Shown here one piece after another: positions 10,919-25,903 of a stretch of DNA of 47,927 bases. The stretch's first letter is position 1. Each line of letters opens with the position of its first letter. The position numbers and the translations under genes are program-made. The DNA lies in the IMG/VR virus record IMGVR_UViG_3300007734_000708, positions 1 to 47,927 of that record; one strand, written 5' to 3'. Source of the DNA: a virus. The notes beneath the pieces were generated by a model. The model worked only from the letters and a program-made list of their open reading frames with translations. It searched no databases and was not told the origin of the DNA.

Positions 10919-12772
10919 TTATAATGGTACTACTCTACCTTGAATATCTACGTTAGGATATTTTACTTCAAAAATCATAGGATCAAGTGAAGGATAAATT
11001 ACACCATTAGATGTAGCTCCTTTTATATCATATGAATATAAAGAATACCCTAATTCTATTCCTGATTTGTTTGTTATTTCTAAATTTTTAACTGTTTGAA
11101 CTCCTTCTACTCTATCTAATAAAACATATAAATCTCTTAAAATAATAGGTTGGTTAATTTGCCAATTACTAATATTAAAAAATACTTGTAAAGCAGATAT
11201 ACATCTTGCTATTACATCTGTGCTAACGTAATTAGGTAAAACAATTATATCAAAATTAACTCCTATATTGATAACATAAGCATCTTTAATGTTAACAGAG
11301 TCGTTTAACATTCTATATTGAGATAAATATGCTATAAGATTTTGTTTAAGTGCAACAGAAGCAGCAATAAGATTTCTGTTTATATTAAATGTTAAAATAT
11401 AAAGATCTAAAACTGAATTTGATTCTCCAGCGGATAGATTTTTAATTTTAGTTGGTTCAATAAATGCTTTAGCAATGTTACCATATTTAGATGGCATGCT
11501 CATTGCTCTAACCATATAATCGTCTTGGGTTACGTTTCGCAATTGAGTAGAAAAATTCATCATAGAATTTTGTCTAATTTCTTCAATTGTATCTCCGTCT
11601 CCACCTCCACTAGCTGCTAATGGGTTTGTTACGGCTAATGAACCAAATATATCGTTTGCTGTGTTTGGATCTAGATTCGAATTTATAAATCTAGAAGTAG
11701 TATTTAAAATTGTTAAAGTATTAGCTGCTACATTTGCTGCTACTCCTCCTCCAGTTAAATATCTAACTGTTAAAGTAGTATTTGATGGAGCAATACCATA
11801 TGTTTTAGTAAATAGGAAGTTAGATGGAGAAAATGCTGTTGTAAGTTTAGTTTGTTCAAATGGTAAACCAATACCTATATTATCTGGGTTTGGTACTATT
11901 TCTTCATCTGAATCTGTGGCTGTTCCTGCTCCAAATTGTATTTGTAATGTTGTAGAGTTTTTAAAACGAGTAGTAAAACGGCGTTGAATTTTTCTTAATT
12001 TTAAAAGATATGGAGCATCACCGTATGTTGATAAATTAGGATCGTTTGTATTAGTATTTTTAATAGAATTAAATACCATTTCTTGACCTAAATGGTCTAC
12101 TTCATACCAAGTATTTCCGTTTGAATCAACACAATCTAATACTCCTATCATGTTAAATGCATTAATTTCAACAGTAGAAAATTTAACAGGAGCTCCAAAA
12201 TTAAATGTAGTTGTATTAATTGTAGAAGATATTGCTTTTCTATTCTTTTTAAGTAAGTAATATAATGGGGTAGTTCCTGATACTTCGTATATAGATATTT
12301 CTGTTGGATCTGAAGAACTTGAAACTGAAAAATCTACGTCATCTGACACTAAAAATGACGTTGCAGGATTAGTGTTAGTAGATACTGTAAAATTACCAGG
12401 AATAAATAAAGAATAATTAAAATCAGGAATGTATGTTGAGCCTGACAATATTGAAGGGACTTTCTGATAGAAATCTATATTTGTAGTTGCTACACCTGTT
12501 ACATTTGGTTTGTAACCAAACATATATGCTAATTCAAATAAATTATTTGATTGACGAGCAAATTGTAGATAGTTTTCTTGTATTTGATTATCTAAATAAA
12601 ACGATAAGACATCCCCAACATAAGCAGCCATCTCCATAAACATCATACCTGGAGATGCTGGGCTAAAATCGTTGTATGTGGTTGGGAAATAGGTTTTAGT
12701 ATAATCTACTAAGTTAGCCCTAAACTCTTCAAAAGTTTTATTGATGTATTTTATATTTTTATTTACTGCCAT
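10919..12772 (-). CDS. baseplate wedge protein, gp6/J-like
   Basis: 617 aa. The conserved gp6/J-type signature is near the N-terminus: NDFSPASPGMMFMEMAAYVG followed by DVLSFYLDNQIQENYL, at about residues 35-70. In T4, gp6 dimers form the inner ring of the baseplate wedge and connect to gp25 and gp53. Here the gp25-like gene lies immediately upstream and overlaps it by one base, which matches the functional pairing. The length agrees with T4 gp6 (about 660 aa). The C-terminal part (about residues 480-610) carries the LRDLYVLLDRVEGVQTVKNL segment common in this family. This is one of the firmest assignments in the window. Confidence 0.88.
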   Translation of the reverse strand: MAVNKNIKYINKTFEEFRANLVDYTKTYFPTTYNDFSPASPGMMFMEMAAYVGDVLSFYLDNQIQENYLQFARQSNNLFELAYMFGYKPNVTGVATTNIDFYQKVPSILSGSTYIPDFNYSLFIPGNFTVSTNTNPATSFLVSDDVDFSVSSSSDPTEISIYEVSGTTPLYYLLKKNRKAISSTINTTTFNFGAPVKFSTVEINAFNMIGVLDCVDSNGNTWYEVDHLGQEMVFNSIKNTNTNDPNLSTYGDAPYLLKLRKIQRRFTTRFKNSTTLQIQFGAGTATDSDEEIVPNPDNIGIGLPFEQTKLTTAFSPSNFLFTKTYGIAPSNTTLTVRYLTGGGVAANVAANTLTILNTTSRFINSNLDPNTANDIFGSLAVTNPLAASGGGDGDTIEEIRQNSMMNFSTQLRNVTQDDYMVRAMSMPSKYGNIAKAFIEPTKIKNLSAGESNSVLDLYILTFNINRNLIAASVALKQNLIAYLSQYRMLNDSVNIKDAYVINIGVNFDIIVLPNYVSTDVIARCISALQVFFNISNWQINQPIILRDLYVLLDRVEGVQTVKNLEITNKSGIELGYSLYSYDIKGATSNGVIYPSLDPMIFEVKYPNVDIQGRVVPL

Positions 12773-13179
12773 TATGCAAATCCTATTTGTATGTTGTCTA
12801 CTATTCCTGTATCTATAATACTATATGTTATATTCGCAAATACTTCATTACTATCGTACACAGGAGTTATGTCTAATTGTTCAACACTTATATTTGAAAA
12901 ATATCTTGCTATTGAATCTTGAATAGCTTGTTGTAAACCACTTAAATTTTGTTGTTCTATTTGTTCAAACAATTTTGATCTTAAATTAGAACCAAAATTT
13001 GGGTTTAAATATCTTTCATTAGTATTTGTTAAAAAGAAATTTAATAAATTATTACGTATAGCATCTTTAGTAGTATAGGTAGAAAAGAAAACATTTGGTG
13101 CATTAAATGGAATAGATACACCCACAGCGGTACCGGGGCGTTGATCTATTGGATATATTTTTTTAGCACCAAAAGCCAT
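12772..13179 (-). CDS. baseplate wedge protein, gp25-like
   Basis: 135 aa, a normal length for gp25/GpW-type baseplate wedge proteins. Diagnostic features are TKDAIRNNLLNFFLTNTNER at about residues 37-56 followed by YLNPNFGSNLRSKLFEQ, the classic 'ER...P.FG..L...LFE' pattern. In T4, gp25 sits at the sheath-baseplate junction and helps initiate sheath polymerisation. It overlaps the gp6-like gene by one base and the 116-aa gene upstream by one base. No lysozyme catalytic role is implied; the old 'lysozyme-like' label of the family is historical. Confidence 0.88.
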   Translation of the reverse strand: MAFGAKKIYPIDQRPGTAVGVSIPFNAPNVFFSTYTTKDAIRNNLLNFFLTNTNERYLNPNFGSNLRSKLFEQIEQQNLSGLQQAIQDSIARYFSNISVEQLDITPVYDSNEVFANITYSIIDTGIVDNIQIGFA

Positions 13180-18112: not shown

Positions 18113-18820
18113 TTAATGAAATTTTATATATCCGTTCTCAAGGTAAAACGAATAGTTACGCTTATATATGTCAAATAATTTTTCTGTTATTTTAGTTATT
18201 TTAGGTGTTTTAACGTCAATTATTTCACGTATATAAATATATAGTGCCTTTTTGTTAAATACCTCTAAATTTTCACGTTTTCTAAATAATTCAAGAACAG
18301 CATCTGCTATCTTAGCATCTTCATCTTTAGGGAATATTTTGTAAATGTTTGAAGTACAATATTCAACATATAAATCCATAAATAAAGCTAATTTATCGTT
18401 TATTGATAATTTATCACTAGGTGAATTATGTTCTTCCATAACATACGATTCTGAATTATCGTCGTCTAAAGTAGATACTGGTATGGATGTGATTTTCTTT
18501 TTATAATTTTTTTCGTTATATAATATTAACCAACGTTTAACAATAGTACCAAAATACGAATATGCTTTAGTTCCTTTAGTATTGTCAAACAAATGAATTT
18601 TACTAAGTAAAAACGTAATGATTTCATGTTGTAGATCTTCTATGTTTTCTACTTCAGTATGATAAAATTTAAATGTATGAATGATATTTTGGGTAAGTTT
18701 AAAAAAGGCATAATGAATACCTTCGTCATAAATTTTACTTCTAACTGCTGGGTCTTCCGTTTTATTATACAAAACAATAGCATCTTCGGTTTCTTGGGTA
18801 AAATAGTTCTTTTTAGCCAT
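18113..18820 (-). CDS. late-transcription sigma factor, gp55-like
   Basis: 235 aa. Residues about 58-105 (ENIEDLQHEIITFLLSKIHL, then FDNTKGTKAYSYFGTIVKRW) match the core of sigma region 2: 'DLxQE...', an FD element, and aromatic SYF...R residues that in sigma factors contact the -10 element. The protein is short and lacks a normal region 4, as in T4 gp55 (185 aa), which directs host RNA polymerase to late promoters with a simple -10-like box. Placement beside the baseplate operon, and recurrent ATATTTAT boxes before late genes, fit this role. The family call is fairly firm; promoter specificity is inferred. Confidence 0.78.
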   Translation of the reverse strand: MAKKNYFTQETEDAIVLYNKTEDPAVRSKIYDEGIHYAFFKLTQNIIHTFKFYHTEVENIEDLQHEIITFLLSKIHLFDNTKGTKAYSYFGTIVKRWLILYNEKNYKKKITSIPVSTLDDDNSESYVMEEHNSPSDKLSINDKLALFMDLYVEYCTSNIYKIFPKDEDAKIADAVLELFRKRENLEVFNKKALYIYIREIIDVKTPKITKITEKLFDIYKRNYSFYLENGYIKFH

Positions 18821-19092
18821 TATTTTATAGTTTTAAATTTATTTAATTCGTCTTGTAAGTATTGAACTTGATTAAAGAACCATCCTATTTCATCATCGCT
18901 TTTAAACATTTCTCTAGCATCTATTTCTTTAAGTTTTTTGTCTGAAAACTCGATTGTGCTTGAAAGGTTAGCAATGTAATTTTCATATGATTTAATCATA
19001 TCCTCACATTTTTCATTTTTTCTTAATAAGTTATAGCTTGTGTAACTTAACACAAGTACTAAAACTGTTAAAATAATAATTAATATAATCAT
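18820..19092 (-). CDS. small membrane-anchored protein
   Basis: 90 aa. Residues 2-24 (IILIIILTVLVLVLSYTSYN) form one transmembrane helix or uncleaved signal anchor. They are followed by a charged helix and a conserved-looking segment IDAREMFKSDDEIGWFFNQV near residues 57-76. The stop overlaps the sigma-factor ATG by one base, so the two are translationally coupled. It starts just downstream of a rho-independent terminator, so it needs read-through or its own promoter. Function unknown. Confidence 0.65.
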   Translation of the reverse strand: MIILIIILTVLVLVLSYTSYNLLRKNEKCEDMIKSYENYIANLSSTIEFSDKKLKEIDAREMFKSDDEIGWFFNQVQYLQDELNKFKTIK

Positions 19093-19948: not shown

Positions 19949-20140
19949 TTAACCGTTTAATTCGTTTCCTATTATAGGTTCGTTGTTAATATACAAACGA
20001 ATTTGCTCTACATGTTCTCGAATTTGTTCTAGTGTTTCTCTAGCACCATCTCTATCTCCTCTATTCAGAAATAGATTATTTTTATTTAAACTAGATTCAA
20101 TACTGTCTAGTTTTCTAAGGATTGGTTCTCTATGTTTCAT
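19949..20140 (-). CDS. small helical protein of T4-like phages
   Basis: 63 aa, starting MKHREPILRKLDSIESSLNK and ending INNEPIIGNELNG. This start/end pattern (MKHRE...LEx(I/L)...EPixxNEiN) is familiar from small uncharacterised proteins of T4-like phages. It is predicted to be almost entirely helical with a coiled-coil tendency. It heads a two-gene unit with the HD hydrolase. An upstream box TGTACATTTAGA at 20220-20231 could be its promoter. Function unknown. Confidence 0.65.
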   Translation of the reverse strand: MKHREPILRKLDSIESSLNKNNLFLNRGDRDGARETLEQIREHVEQIRLYINNEPIIGNELNG

Positions 20141-20256: not shown

Positions 20257-23200
20257 TTAATTTCTTAACAATAAGACTGAGCCCATTTTTTCATTTACAA
20301 TGCCATCTAATGAACAATAACGGATTTTATAAACATACGCACCTTCTTTAGCAAATTCACCTTTAACTTTTCCGTCCCACCCTTTATTTACTTCATTGGT
20401 ACTAAATAACCATTGACCCCAACGATCATATATTTCCATTTTATAACAACTTTGATTAAGACCATAATCTGAAAATACGGGTTTAAAATAATCATTTAAA
20501 CCATCTTGATTAGCGGGTGTGAATGAGTTTGGAATATATACGTTAAATTCATTTTTAACATCTACTATTTTAGTAATAGCAGCAGTACATCCCTCTACCG
20601 ATTGTACTGTTAATGTTATTTCGTATCTACCTATTTTATTTGGTATGTAAAGTAAGTTAACTGGGTTTCCTGTTGTGCCATCAGATACAGTCCAAGTATA
20701 AGTGTGTCTACCTAAATTAAGTGTTTTATTTACAGTTTGTATTTCAGGATTAGATAAATAAACTTCCCTAGGCATTGCGAAATCAGGTTTAGGTTGATCT
20801 AATACTTCTATTAATGAAGTGCTTTGAGTTAAAGCCGAACATCCCTCTAAACTAATGTAACTAAAACTAGCTGTGTATGTACCTGGGGCTGTAAACGTGT
20901 GCATTGTGTATAACGATTTGTCTTCTGTTCCGTCCCCAAATTTCCATACACCTAAACCATTAATTTCATTTGAGTTAAAAACTACTTTTAAAGGAGCGCA
21001 TCCTTTGTTATTGTCTAAAGATAAGTTGATTTTAGGTATTTCTACCGTTTTTACGGTAATAGTTTTACTATCAGGGCACAAAGTATAAGTTGGTGTTGAA
21101 TGTGTGTTGTATACTATATTGTTGATCCCAACATTTGCTTTTTTAGGATCAAATATAGTACCTACAATACCAGGACCAAACCAACTACCACCTACGTTCT
21201 TAACTAATGAGTTTAAGTTAAATGGTTGATCTGCTCCTATACAATAATAGTCTTTAGGATATGTTGCTAAGTCAGCAGATATAAATTGCTCTATATTAAT
21301 GGTTGTTTGAGCAAATGCAATACAAGGTCCTGCATTAATACTATAGCTAATTATATTTTTACCTATAACACCTAAAGCAGGATTGAATAATCCTTTCACA
21401 CTAACACCATTTGTATTTACACCACCAAATATACCTCCCACAGGACTAACATCTAATTGTATAGGCATTCCATTATTACACCTTGTATCTACTTTAGCAA
21501 TAGTAGGTGTTTGTAGTGAATATACTCTAACTGATGTGGTTGAACTATTAGGACATAAACCACTTGGAGAAGTAGCTGTACTATGAGTCAATACAAATGA
21601 ACCAGCACCAACAGTATTAGGTATAAACATACTGCCTACAATACCTGAACCTGACCAAATACCTTGACTAGCAGTAAATGGAGTTAAGTTAACGGGAGCA
21701 TTTGTATTACACATATCAGGTATAGCCTGACTGATAGCAGATGAAACATACATTTCAACACTTACTTGTTTAGTTTGTTGAGCAAAGCAAGTTGGAGTAC
21801 CAATTACATATTGTACGTTATTGTTTCCTATTGCTGCTGTTTGTGGATTGAATACTCCTGTACTTGATACAAATGATGAACTAACCCAATTACCAATGTT
21901 AGGTGTTACTGTTAATTGTACAGCACCATCTTTACTACAAAATGGTCCTACATTTGATATGCTAGGTACGGGTGGATTAGATACTTGTACTGTTATTGTT
22001 TTAGAATCAGGACACAAACTAGTATTAGGTGTAGATTGAGTACTATAAGTTAAAACATAAGTGTTGGTTGGTAATCCTGCTGGGTTGAACCAAATGTTAT
22101 TTACATTAATACCAGTCCAAACACCTACTGTGTTTTGAGTTATATTCATTAAGTTAACAGCAGAATTGTTTACACATAAGTGTCCTACTGTACCGGTTAA
22201 AGCAGCACTTCTAAAAATAGAAGGTCGTAAAGCAAATGTATTTGTATTAACACAAGGTCCAACATTAACAGTATAACTTGCTAATGTGTTTTGTAATGTA
22301 GCTAAAGAAGGAGTAACAATACCACTTTGAGACATTATAGGATTAGACCAATTACCACCTCCAGGATTAGCTACTACTTGAAATGTAGATCCATTAGTAC
22401 AAAATTCAGGATTAATAACTATAGAAGGTAATACTGTATTTGTAACTGAGATGTTTAGAATACTTTGATTAGGACAAGCTAATGGATTTGGGTTAGATTG
22501 AGTTGAGTAAGTAAATGTATAGTTGCTTGTATTTAACCCTGCAGGATTGAAAATACCATTTACTACATTAGTTCCAGTCCAAATACCAACTGTACTTTGA
22601 ACTATGTTCATTAAATTGATTGTACTGTTAGTTACACAAAGAGGTGCAATTGTAGAAGTTAAAGTAGCAGGATTAAATTGATTTAATTGAAACGTTCCTG
22701 TGTTAGAACTACCACAACCACTTTGATTGTATTGATAACTAAAAGTATTAGTACCTAAAGCTAATGCAGTTGAAGTAGGTACAATTACTCCATTTGGAAT
22801 AGAGAATGTACCACCACTTGGAGTTACTTGGATTGAGTAACTATTACCATTAGTACATAAGATGGGTATTGGAGCAAAAGTAGGAGTAGATGGGTTAATC
22901 ATGTTAATCGACATAGTGCGAGTAACAGGACAATTAATTGCTGTAGGTGTAATTACACAAGTGTAAGTTATAATAGTATTGGTTCCTGGAGGTACATTAG
23001 GTTGAATTAATACGTTTTGAGATGCATTAAGATTACCCATTATGTATAAATTAGGTTGCCAATTAAAAGTAAATTGACCGGGTTGAGGAGGAACTGACCA
23101 AGTTATACTAGCAGCAAATGGCTGAGTACAAGGAGTCATTGAAGTAGGAGATATTGTAGGATTGTTTAAATAGGTGTTTATGTAAAGTAAATTGAAATAC

Positions 23201-24549
23201 TTACAAGATCCATCAAACGTCTCTACACTATAAACACCAGCAGCCATACCACCTATAGTATAAGTGTTTAATGCAGTTGGATAAACTGAAAAGTTATAAG
23301 GAGGAGTTCCAACAGCATTTACAACTGAATAGCTATTAACGCCTGGAGGAGATCCAGGAGCAGGACTTAAATTTATAGTAGCAGTACCATTAGTAGCATT
23401 TACACAAACAGAAGAACCTGTAACACCAACTGAACCTGGAGGTGATGACATTAAAGTATAACTAATTTGAGATAAACAGTTTTGTAAGTTAGTATAAGAT
23501 AAGTTATAAACTTGACCTGGAGATGGGTTGTTAACTGTATAACCTGATGCTACGCCAAGAGATCCTTGTATAGGAGAATTACCAAGAAACCATTGAAAGT
23601 TTGTACCACCAGTTGTGTTTAAATAAGCTTGGGCCCCACAATAAGGTTTATATAAGTATTGAGTTTGAGGTGTACCTGTACCAACAGATACAGTTGCAGA
23701 AGCAGTACCACATAAAGCATTTCCTGCACCTGCAATAGTAACAGAATAAATACCTGCAGGTAAATTAACAGCAATAGAAGAAGTACCTACTACACTATTA
23801 GAAGTATTAGTCCAAGTATAAGTATAGCCTGCCCCACTTCCAGCACCTTGTACTGTAGCTGAACCTGAAGATCCATTTGGGCAAGTGGTATTAGAACCAA
23901 TACCTGCTATCATTACGGTAGTCGTATTCAATTGTGAAATAGAACTTAATTGACATCCACCACTTGAAGTTAAGTTAACAGTATAAGTTTGACCTGGGAT
24001 TGGATTTGTAATAGTAATAACAGCTGTTGTTCCCATAGGAGGAGGTATAGGACCATTAGGCCCTACCCACTGATAAAAGTTATACCCTAAAGGAGCATTA
24101 ATTTGAGCTACACCCGAACCTGCACAAAATGAAACAGCACCTGGAATAGGACCTCCAGGTAAACCTCCTAAACCAGGAGATATATTTTGACCACCACACA
24201 CAGCATCAAAAAATGTTGTACCATAATGTCCTCCAAAATTACAATCTACAGTCCATATTTCAATAGTAACACAACCACCAATGTATGGTGTTAAGTCAAT
24301 TGACTTGGTTTGCCAGTTACTCATAACACCATATCCACAAGGTGTAAAAGATACGTTTGCTAATGAACCACAGTTAGCTGCTAATGTCATTGAAGAACAA
24401 GAAGCTACAGTATTACCATTACAAGCATTTATAACTCTTAAATATAATCCTGGTTGATCACAACAACTATGTCCTGCATTTTCCCAAAATCCTGCAAATG
24501 CAAACTGAAATAGAGCATTTGCTTGAGTAACAGGAAATGTTGTTGCCAT
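20257..24549 (-). CDS. giant secreted surface protein with T9SS type B sorting domain (main reading frame)
   Basis: 1430 aa from the first ATG, but the frame is open further upstream to about 24635 and joins the signal-peptide ORF at 24620-25126 after a one-base shift. The domains seen are as follows. An N-terminal jelly-roll-like domain carries HSCCDQPGLYLRVINACNG and GGHYGTTFFDAVCGG. A SprB-like repeat lies near residues 205-290. Then come several ~180-aa Ig-like repeats with 'LC...vNLmn...G.WtG' and 'FNPag...LCPdskt' motifs. PKD-type domains (VWKFGDGTEDKS) lie near 1190-1330. The last ~90 residues (YIPNSFTPANQDGLNDYF ... YDRWGQWLFST ... GWDGKVKGEFAKEGAYVYKI) form a gliding-motility/T9SS type B C-terminal domain. 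This type of protein is exported and anchored on Bacteroidota surfaces; finding it among phage genes is unusual. Confidence 0.85.
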   Translation of the reverse strand: MATTFPVTQANALFQFAFAGFWENAGHSCCDQPGLYLRVINACNGNTVASCSSMTLAANCGSLANVSFTPCGYGVMSNWQTKSIDLTPYIGGCVTIEIWTVDCNFGGHYGTTFFDAVCGGQNISPGLGGLPGGPIPGAVSFCAGSGVAQINAPLGYNFYQWVGPNGPIPPPMGTTAVITITNPIPGQTYTVNLTSSGGCQLSSISQLNTTTVMIAGIGSNTTCPNGSSGSATVQGAGSGAGYTYTWTNTSNSVVGTSSIAVNLPAGIYSVTIAGAGNALCGTASATVSVGTGTPQTQYLYKPYCGAQAYLNTTGGTNFQWFLGNSPIQGSLGVASGYTVNNPSPGQVYNLSYTNLQNCLSQISYTLMSSPPGSVGVTGSSVCVNATNGTATINLSPAPGSPPGVNSYSVVNAVGTPPYNFSVYPTALNTYTIGGMAAGVYSVETFDGSCKYFNLLYINTYLNNPTISPTSMTPCTQPFAASITWSVPPQPGQFTFNWQPNLYIMGNLNASQNVLIQPNVPPGTNTIITYTCVITPTAINCPVTRTMSINMINPSTPTFAPIPILCTNGNSYSIQVTPSGGTFSIPNGVIVPTSTALALGTNTFSYQYNQSGCGSSNTGTFQLNQFNPATLTSTIAPLCVTNSTINLMNIVQSTVGIWTGTNVVNGIFNPAGLNTSNYTFTYSTQSNPNPLACPNQSILNISVTNTVLPSIVINPEFCTNGSTFQVVANPGGGNWSNPIMSQSGIVTPSLATLQNTLASYTVNVGPCVNTNTFALRPSIFRSAALTGTVGHLCVNNSAVNLMNITQNTVGVWTGINVNNIWFNPAGLPTNTYVLTYSTQSTPNTSLCPDSKTITVQVSNPPVPSISNVGPFCSKDGAVQLTVTPNIGNWVSSSFVSSTGVFNPQTAAIGNNNVQYVIGTPTCFAQQTKQVSVEMYVSSAISQAIPDMCNTNAPVNLTPFTASQGIWSGSGIVGSMFIPNTVGAGSFVLTHSTATSPSGLCPNSSTTSVRVYSLQTPTIAKVDTRCNNGMPIQLDVSPVGGIFGGVNTNGVSVKGLFNPALGVIGKNIISYSINAGPCIAFAQTTINIEQFISADLATYPKDYYCIGADQPFNLNSLVKNVGGSWFGPGIVGTIFDPKKANVGINNIVYNTHSTPTYTLCPDSKTITVKTVEIPKINLSLDNNKGCAPLKVVFNSNEINGLGVWKFGDGTEDKSLYTMHTFTAPGTYTASFSYISLEGCSALTQSTSLIEVLDQPKPDFAMPREVYLSNPEIQTVNKTLNLGRHTYTWTVSDGTTGNPVNLLYIPNKIGRYEITLTVQSVEGCTAAITKIVDVKNEFNVYIPNSFTPANQDGLNDYFKPVFSDYGLNQSCYKMEIYDRWGQWLFSTNEVNKGWDGKVKGEFAKEGAYVYKIRYCSLDGIVNEKMGSVLLLRN

Positions 24550-24599
24550 TTTGTTTCGAGCATAATTCCAAGTTGCTATTGAATTAAGTTGAGCAACTC

Positions 24600-24660
24600 T
24601 ATTTCCACCAAATGGAGAATTACCAATATAAAACTACATTGGTTTGTGCATTAAAATTAA
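24600..24660 (-). other. frameshift junction in the secreted-protein gene
   Basis: On the coding strand the signal-peptide ORF reads ...NVVLYW and stops at TGG TAA. Dropping one base in a T4 run (GTTTTAT) switches to YIGNSPFGGNRVAQLN, which continues without a stop into the 1430-aa frame. The joined sequence makes sense for this protein type. A missing T in a homopolymer (assembly error or real mutation) is the simplest cause; programmed +1 frameshifting is possible. Confidence 0.75.
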
Positions 24661-25126
24661 ATGGTGTAGTTACAATATTAAATTCATTTGCACCTAAAGT
24701 GTATGGTGTACCTAATGCAGTACAATTATAACCAGCACTTGTTGCTTTGTTGCTATATAAAGTCCATCCTTGAACAGCAGTTGCGTTTGCAGCACCTACA
24801 TAGTTTCCTGGAGGAGTATTTTCAAATCCTTCATTAACACAAGGGGCAACCATTACTTGTCTTGGTTTCCTGAATAATTTACCATTAATGGGTGCTTCAT
24901 ATGCTGGGTTAGATTTATAGTATCGATCACGAACAAAGTCACGTTGTCTTTGTTTAACATAATCACGGAGTTCTTTTCCTTGAACTCCATTTTGTTTAGC
25001 ATAATTTATAACCTCAGCAGTATTGAAACCAGCTAAGGAATCAATATTGTCCATGTCAGGAGTAAATGTTTGACCAATAGATGCTAATGTAAATAGGGCG
25101 AATAAAAAACTAAGAAATTTTCTCAT
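24620..25126 (-). CDS. signal peptide and N-terminal part of the giant T9SS-type protein
   Basis: 168 aa. Residues 1-19 (MRKFLSFLFALFTLASIGQ) are a clear Sec signal peptide, with likely cleavage after IGQ, a common Bacteroidota pattern. After a charged helical stretch (residues 45-90), residues about 97-168 (APCVNEGFENTPPGNYVGAA ... NEFNIVTTPFN) are the start of the adhesin-like jelly-roll domain completed in the next frame. The ORF ends prematurely at the frameshift. Upstream lie a late-type ATATTTATA box (25139-25147) and a degenerate copy of the accessory-region promoter (25151-25179). Without frame restoration only a short secreted fragment would be made. Confidence 0.8.
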   Translation of the reverse strand: MRKFLSFLFALFTLASIGQTFTPDMDNIDSLAGFNTAEVINYAKQNGVQGKELRDYVKQRQRDFVRDRYYKSNPAYEAPINGKLFRKPRQVMVAPCVNEGFENTPPGNYVGAANATAVQGWTLYSNKATSAGYNCTALGTPYTLGANEFNIVTTPFNFNAQTNVVLYW

Positions 25127-25138
25127 AAGGCATTTGTT

Positions 25139-25147
25139 TATAAATAT
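25139..25147 (-). promoter_or_regulatory. putative late promoter box (ATATTTATA)
   Basis: It lies 12 bases before the ATG of the secreted-protein gene and matches the boxes before baseplate and lysis-type genes, suggesting late expression of the surface protein. Confidence 0.4.
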
Positions 25148-25150
25148 GCC

Positions 25151-25179
25151 TTAAATTACGTTATAGAGTTTTGAAAGCC
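25151..25179 (-). promoter_or_regulatory. degenerate copy of the 29-nt promoter-like element
   Basis: GGCTTTCAAAAC matches the left half of the accessory-region element well, but the right box reads TAATTTAA rather than TAnnTTTA, as if one base were lost. It sits directly upstream of the late-type box, so the gene could have two promoters. Confidence 0.35.
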
Positions 25180-25203: not shown

Positions 25204-25638
25204 TTATTGAGGAAAATACTCTTTTACTTTAAGTTTAATGTTGTGCAACAAAGCACATTTTTCATATTCCTCTAGTTCTTCAAAAAATTTAATTGATGCT
25301 TCTAAAGCGTCAAGAAATGGTTTGTTTGCTTTTGTTTTGATACAATCAATATGTAGTGGATTGTCTAATTTTATTTTTTTAATATAATCCCAAGCCCTAC
25401 TATAAATAAAAAATTTACTAGTTTCTTCTAGTTTTTCAATGTCTATTTCTGGGGCAATTTTGTTAAATGAAATAACTGTATATTTTTCAAAAAATAACTG
25501 GTTAGAAATTAATTTAGTAAATCCTCCAATCCAATATAAAGGATGATCTGAGAAGTCTACTAATAGGGAAATGTCATCTGAGTCTTTTTCTGGCTCATTA
25601 ACGCTACCAAAGCTGCTGAATATTTTTTCAAAGTCCAT
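25204..25638 (-). CDS. uncharacterised phage protein
   Basis: About 144 aa from the chosen start MDFEKIFSSFGSVNEPEKDS. A longer start at 25665 would add MWSHFYVRI but lies close to the upstream region. The protein has hydrophobic and charged helices, with LLVDFSDHPLYWIGGFTKLI near residues 27-46 and a C-terminal EYEKCALLHNIKLKVKEYFP. No enzymatic motif, membrane segment or signal peptide is seen. It lies downstream of the Cys-rich lipoprotein gene. I recall similar proteins in other T4-like phages but know no function. Confidence 0.6.
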   Translation of the reverse strand: MDFEKIFSSFGSVNEPEKDSDDISLLVDFSDHPLYWIGGFTKLISNQLFFEKYTVISFNKIAPEIDIEKLEETSKFFIYSRAWDYIKKIKLDNPLHIDCIKTKANKPFLDALEASIKFFEELEEYEKCALLHNIKLKVKEYFPQ

Positions 25639-25708
25639 AATTCGAACATAAAAGTGGCTCCACATTATACATATGAAGCCAATTTCGGTTGCGTCGTAGT
25701 CTTGTGAC

Positions 25709-25903
25709 TTAGTGAGCTACAGTTTCAGTAGCAACTGCGTTTGCAGTAGCAGCTTCAACAGCAGTAGCATCAACACAAGTTTCTACACAAGTTGCTTCAC
25801 AGCTAACTGTGTCGCATGCTTGTTCAGAAGCCGTACTTTCTGAGTTAGTACTGCAAGCAAACATAGCTGCAGCAAAGGCTAGGGTTAAAATTGATTTTTT
25901 CAT
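25709..25903 (-). CDS. small Cys-rich lipoprotein
   Basis: 64 aa. MKKSILTLAFAAAMFACSTN is a typical lipoprotein signal with lipobox MFAC, so residue C17 would be lipidated and start the mature protein. The mature part has regularly spaced Cys (ACDTVSCEATCVETCVDA) and then an Ala/Val/Thr-rich tail. Membrane-anchored phage lipoproteins often act at the host envelope, for example in superinfection exclusion; that role here is inference. A late-type ATATTTATG box lies just upstream (25909-25917). Confidence 0.7.
   Translation of the reverse strand: MKKSILTLAFAAAMFACSTNSESTASEQACDTVSCEATCVETCVDATAVEAATANAVATETVAH

Follow-up and report, generated by a model that had tools for sequence, protein, structure and literature searches.

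A giant type B adhesin gene in an immuto-like phage, with a product probably displayed by the type IX secretion system of the host

The IMG/VR record IMGVR_UViG_3300007734_000708, a linear virus contig of 47,927 bases analysed over its whole length (the window), carries a giant adhesin gene at 20257-25126. The gene is probably (with a confidence of roughly 70%) a phage-resident copy of a type B adhesin of the type IX secretion system (T9SS) from the host lineage, the product of which would be exported by the host T9SS onto the surface of the infected cell. If this is true, lytic Bacteroidota phages rebuild the infected-cell surface through the type IX secretion system of the host itself, and the tool is a mimic of a host adhesin with the binding domain kept nearly unchanged. 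All window features given below with coordinates lie on the minus strand.

The window is a 48-kb fragment of an immuto-like contractile-tailed phage, because its baseplate wedge is 43% identical to that of Flavobacterium phage immuto over the whole length of 617 aa and its genes follow the same order. Tail genes fill the left 19 kb, all on the minus strand, and include the baseplate wedge genes (10919-13179). They are followed by a candidate Rz-like spanin with a weak match (18820-19092) and a phosphohydrolase-like core phage gene (19153-19947), which is the counterpart of immuto QQO92068.1. The right part encodes an SLT transglycosylase, a T5orf172 protein, a DnaB/UvsX-type ATPase, an ATP-dependent DNA ligase and three tRNAs. 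Within the 48-kb fragment compared, the baseplate and phosphohydrolase region is homologous and syntenic with immuto, the two phages sharing the order phosphohydrolase, ~90 aa, ~235 aa, 116 aa, two tail-region proteins, gp25-like protein and wedge. The original prediction, which placed the adhesin between same-strand phage genes on both sides, is borne out by the wedge proteins, the spanin-like protein, the SLT transglycosylase and a gene order matching that of a cultured phage. Long contigs of related phages measure about 160 kb (L024, 163 kb). The wedge of Microcystis phage Mel-JY01 (PP395634.1, L094) is 46% identical to that of the window, closer than the wedge of the Flavobacterium phage, and the stated cyanobacterial host of Mel-JY01 may deserve a check.

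In the window the adhesin gene is divided into two open reading frames, at 24620-25126 (168 aa) and 20257-24549 (1430 aa). These are the halves of one broken gene, because a relative from another metagenome (L003) has a single intact ORF of 1624 aa in the same place and with the same flanks, in agreement with the joined protein of about 1620 aa that had been postulated. Over the second ORF (1430 aa) L003 is 92% identical to the window. The frame break is of the single-base type and maps to 24620-24645; the window copy may be dead here or mis-sequenced. A programmed frameshift at the break is unsupported, as L003 reads through in one frame.

For export by the T9SS, cargo needs both a Sec signal peptide and a domain at its C-terminus. 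The adhesin carries what is predicted to be the complete set of export labels, a signal peptide (Gln at +1) at the N-terminus and a type B sorting domain at the C-terminus. Both inspection and a crude script support a Sec signal peptide with a hydrophobic N-terminus, comprising residues 1-18 (25073-25126) with the predicted cleavage site between SIG and QTF, as in the Q-rule for Bacteroidetes signal peptides (PMC5837995). It is followed by a short leader region (DSLxGFN...KxxRxF; 24890-25072) corresponding to a separate signal-peptide-bearing gene in two jumbo-type relatives. At the other end, the T9SS type B sorting domain (20308-20535) scores above the cut-off with both models, TIGR04131 (46.6 bits, cut-off 35) and CHU_C PF13585 (45.2 bits, cut-off 27). 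The N-terminal domain is a predicted lectin/CBM/MAM-like jelly roll that spans the frame break (24175-24844). An initial AlphaFold model of 388 aa proved too poor (pLDDT 48); a better, domain-only model built from 14 sequences is of moderate quality (mean pLDDT 64, pTM 0.70), and its best PDB matches are CBM27, CBM4, CBM61 and MAM domains with E values down to 3e-5, making assignment to the lectin/CBM/MAM-type jelly-roll fold class credible. A sequence-profile search of the PDB returned collagenases only, aligned to the PKD region. The stalk comprises four repeats of ~154 aa (approximate limits 21070-22752), with W-G motifs at residues 851, 1005, 1159 and 1317 in the numbering of the intact copy, and PKD domains (PF18911) in two stretches (PKD_4, 54.4 bits; approximate outer limits 20560-21015). 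The signal peptide, jelly roll, PKD domains and gliding-motility type C-terminal domain proposed earlier are thereby all recovered. As to the Ig-like repeats that had also been proposed, the protein shows the four repeated ~154-aa units and no match to an Ig family. The proposed SprB-like repeat found no Pfam match at E<=0.1 in the window protein or at E<=1 in the L003 protein, and membership of the SprB family is therefore rejected.

Comparison with related phages shows the insertion of a single gene into a conserved slot of immuto-like phages. The slot is bordered upstream by a conserved phage gene of 153 aa (25204-25665) and downstream by a small conserved phage gene of 63 aa (19949-20140), both found in relatives. 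Single-gene insertion is indicated because 60 relatives have 269-370 nt between the equivalent of 25204-25665 and the phosphohydrolase, versus ~5.3 kb in the window; the empty slot has room for the 63-aa gene only. The adhesin gene adjoins the same phosphohydrolase in three other contigs of the phage group (L002, L003 and L005), and L003 spans both of its borders. In another member, L180, a type B protein other than the adhesin (734 aa) lies ~1.3-3.5 kb upstream of the phosphohydrolase. CHU_C was detected in 5 of 45 related records at E<=0.001 and above the cut-off in 4, these four having been chosen as carriers of the adhesin gene. The existence of a strong bacterial homologue could suggest that a bacterial gene was joined into the phage contig during assembly. 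This is extremely improbable, given identical borders in independent metagenomes and phage-like codon usage, on which grounds both chimera and contamination are rejected. Adhesin copies 92-98% identical come from other metagenomes. Thus the two weaknesses that the original prediction had considered, a chimeric join and flanks from a bacterial contig, did not materialize: there is no sign of a join, the flanks are phage and the gene is present in the relatives L002, L003 and L005. A Cys-rich lipoprotein-like ORF of 64 aa (25709-25903) lies close to the slot.

Two short elements precede the adhesin gene, and both are kept in L003. The ATATTTATAA box (25138-25147) recurs upstream of other genes, among them tail and lysis genes. 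Six of the seven coding-strand boxes are located <=30 nt upstream of starts, a proportion reached in 1 of 2000 shifts, and the late-type box noted earlier is thus real as a class. The second element, GGCTTTCAAAA (25169-25179), is the upstream half of a phage promoter-type motif and stands 42 nt from the ATG. Allowing <=1 mismatch it occurs 18 times in the window versus 2.4 expected, with 17 of the 18 on the coding strand. Before the adhesin it has the usual spacing to the ATG, yet the downstream half is degenerate, and this degenerate half of the GGCTTYCAAAA element counts against the preferred explanation. The 26-46 kb part of the window further contains, on the minus strand, 13 full matches to the promoter-like motif [TA]AGGCTTYCAAAA-N9-CGTACATTTAT, all on the coding strand and often 46-62 nt ahead of start codons.

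The sequence evidence marks the adhesin as a settled phage gene, because it combines phage codon usage, purifying selection and promoter-type motifs with flanks conserved across several metagenomes. Its GC3 is 14.5%, the phage structural genes having 11.7-16.4% and the bacterial copy 27.9%. Its codon-usage distance is 2.84 to the phage genes versus 8.45 to the bacterium; single long structural genes have distances to the phage of 3.4-4.1, above that of the adhesin. Among the closest phage copies dN/dS is 0.086-0.135. Between the window and L002, dS is 0.44 in the jelly-roll region, where the protein is conserved, and 0.06 in the next part, a contrast consistent with allele recombination between phage copies. 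A frame break in the window copy and a patchy occurrence among relatives would be expected of a passenger, a host gene picked up by accident that has no function and is now decaying. Such a passenger is unlikely in view of the low dN/dS among phage copies (0.09-0.14), the intact copy in L003, the full codon adaptation to the phage and the versions in jumbo phages.

The best bacterial homologue is a chromosomal protein of 1666 aa from the MAG Sphingobacteriia bacterium LLD_150 (RFNG01000052.1) of Lake Lanier. It is full-length, 61% identical to the phage adhesin and has the same domain order; its neighbours, named by eye from translations, are a permease and rbfA-like, ABC exporter, rsmI-like and corA-like genes. 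The N-terminal region is matched in 86 of the 87 genomes of its family. In a midpoint-rooted tree the five phage copies group together (support 83) beside the LLD_150 protein and inside the bacterial family. The full-length chromosomal homologue and the nested position of the phage copies suggest capture from the LLD_150 lineage, perhaps more than once, in line with the host gene pick-up that had been considered initially. From gene homology we infer that the phage host belongs to the Bacteroidota lineage of this homologue. The chromosomal adhesin differs from the phage copy in its bacterial codon usage and neighbours and in its diverged stalk. Scored per 60-column block, the jelly roll and the domain right after it are for the most part 88-98% identical to the bacterial copy, and the remaining blocks 34-68%; the jelly roll itself is ~88-93% identical to that of LLD_150 (88% for the L003 domain). 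The dN/dS against the bacterial copy is 0.037 in the jelly-roll region, with dS ~1.5 (near saturation), and 0.23 in the middle stalk. Because so low a ratio is found at dS ~1.5, the binding domain is under long-standing constraint rather than the product of a very recent transfer. The sorting region is 51% identical to that of the homologue over the last 214 aa, and among the sorting regions of the LLD_150 genome the homologous adhesin's is the best match (51%), the next by score having 42%.

PorP/SprF-like proteins bind type B cargo and are its likely anchors (PMC9143113). Secretion of type B cargo depends on these PorP/SprF-like shuttles, the supply of which limits overproduced cargo, and in F. 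johnsoniae an orphan type B cargo is served by a shuttle encoded elsewhere (PMC12618676). A neighbouring shuttle gene is thus common for type B cargo, but not defining. The adhesin gene of the window has no such neighbour; no PorP/SprF shuttle was found in the window or in the other virus records searched, and two bacterial genomes contain 10 and 18. As no virus record searched encodes a shuttle, the host would have to supply it. The two predicted export signals and the missing phage shuttle are in keeping with surface display through the host machine. The phage adhesin would be made during infection, exported by Sec and then passed through the host SprA translocon. A host PorP/SprF-like shuttle would collect it, because the phage brings none, and this would be the shuttle of its host counterpart. 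The adhesin would then stand on the infected cell with the lectin-like jelly roll directed outward on the repeat/PKD stalk and would bind the ligand that the host adhesin binds. It would be expected to compete with host adhesins for shuttles, because these are limiting for overproduced type B cargo, and the host surface would be partly replaced or masked. Display is disfavoured by the strict shuttle specificity of some type B domains together with the 51% identity of the sorting region, and by lysis, which in a lytic phage may come before much adhesin has reached the surface.

The least certain step is the benefit to the phage, which would be remodelling of the infected-cell surface most likely via superinfection exclusion and/or altered adhesion that holds infected cells close to fresh hosts; as benefits the two are about equally likely. 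Superinfection exclusion, advanced here tentatively, would have the phage adhesin occupy limiting shuttles and surface sites, thereby removing or masking the receptors of other phages. Shuttles are indeed limiting (PMC12618676), the phage is without its own and the promoter-type motif is shared with a gene region outside the tail genes; the Cryophage authors proposed the same for type A cargo (PMC7468147). However, the codon usage of the adhesin resembles that of structural genes, and a simple decoy needs no conserved ligand-binding domain. That the conserved part is the ligand-binding domain, with a CBM/MAM-like fold, favours adhesion or aggregation, a possible if somewhat doubtful role in which the displayed lectin would hold infected cells to particles or kin and progeny would be released beside new hosts. 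Tail genes adjoin the adhesin and phage tails often contain jelly rolls of this fold class, so a location in the virion, as a fibre or decoration protein despite the export signals, also has to be weighed. It is improbable: a virion part assembled in the cytoplasm would not be expected to have a Sec signal peptide or an outer-membrane export signal at its C-terminus, the slot is empty of the adhesin in 60 relatives and the closest kin are bacterial surface proteins.

Phage-encoded T9SS cargo as such is already known (2019 and 2020; PMC6949934, PMC7468147), and the earlier suggestion of a unique arrangement was too strong in this respect. T9SS sorting domains were noted, without a mechanism, on BACON-domain proteins near head genes in crAss-like gut phage contigs (PMC6949934), which thus resemble the window in having such a domain on a phage contig. 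Like the window phage, Cryophage encodes T9SS-sorted proteins, which vary between variants and for which use of the host system was suggested (Bellas et al. 2020, PMC7468147). The Cryophage cargo is of type A and consists of an endoglucanase, a glycoside hydrolase and a PA14 protein, whereas that of the window is a giant type B adhesin with a full-length bacterial homologue identified and a mapped insertion slot. SprB of Flavobacterium johnsoniae, paired with SprF, is likewise a giant type B adhesin, and export of the phage protein would equally need a PorP/SprF-like shuttle; unlike SprB, the window adhesin is phage-encoded and has no detected SprB repeat and no adjoining shuttle gene. Porphyromonas gingivalis phages encode Q-rule secreted proteins suggested to modify the host envelope (PMC10367356), similar to the window protein in their Bacteroidota-type signal peptides; the text of that paper mentions neither T9SS nor type IX. 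Within the open-access literature searched, the new elements are a type B giant adhesin mimic with a mapped slot, a bacterial counterpart, selection evidence and a missing shuttle, as well as the wide occurrence of type B cargo and a cultured system in which to test it.

Related cargo is found in a number of other phages. Two jumbo-type phages, L004 (a 385-kb contig) and L126 (a 40-kb contig), carry ~60%-identical versions of the adhesin of 1547 and 1551 aa, each preceded by a separate leader gene (94 or 82 aa) that has its own signal peptide and overlaps the adhesin gene (L004 9367-9651; L126 10001-10249). Each of these contigs also encodes a further type B protein. The huge phages LR756502 and LR745206 have three and four type B domains, respectively, and nine occur across three jumbo phage records. 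A search for the adhesin in annotated phages gave three uncultured records only, with partial similarity of 25-32% and the two huge phages leading. Searching IMG/VR with the viral sorting domain gave 270 confirmed type B stretches. In the 80 top-scoring loci, a passenger that recurs is a family of 650-840 aa with the mature start QYCPALGPDQ or similar (L145 8297-10279 and many like it). Proteins of ~187 aa composed of a signal peptide, one small domain and the sorting domain also recur in many viral contigs (L149, L151, L187, L205 and others). PHROGs gave no match for the cargo proteins scanned, including the one ~187-aa protein tested. The signal-peptide and Gln script passes 64 of 67 unique complete viral type B proteins and ~40 of 67 when shuffled; it is lax and its result is supporting only. 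Of 24 records scanned for terminase (phrog_2), most being type B carriers, 16 gave a match; the model also matches bacterial genomes, so single contaminated records are possible.

The class has a cultured member in immuto itself, a related phage. Its protein QQO91933.1 (MW353176.1 12691-13422; L229:1692-2423), annotated only as a cohesin domain-containing protein, has 243 aa with a signal peptide, a cohesin and a T9SS type A sorting domain (45.4 bits, cut-off 23), and this cargo is present in all four immuto records. It shares with the window adhesin the signal peptide and a T9SS domain and differs in its small size, its cohesin, the type A domain and its locus. T9SS cargo is thus common in viral metagenomes and present in the cultured pair of immuto and Flavobacterium sp. 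LMO8, so its use to the phage can be tested directly. T9SS cargo may form a general accessory class of Bacteroidota phages, from many lineages and with genomes to 640 kb, that comprises several passenger families, seizes host shuttles to overwrite the infected surface and whose very short members may jam the shuttle or translocon, a generalization put forward at somewhat less than even odds. In LR756502.1 (~597.5 kb; L102 1438-1788), a 116-aa protein has no parts other than a signal peptide and a type B sorting domain, and could be a decoy for the shuttle or the translocon.
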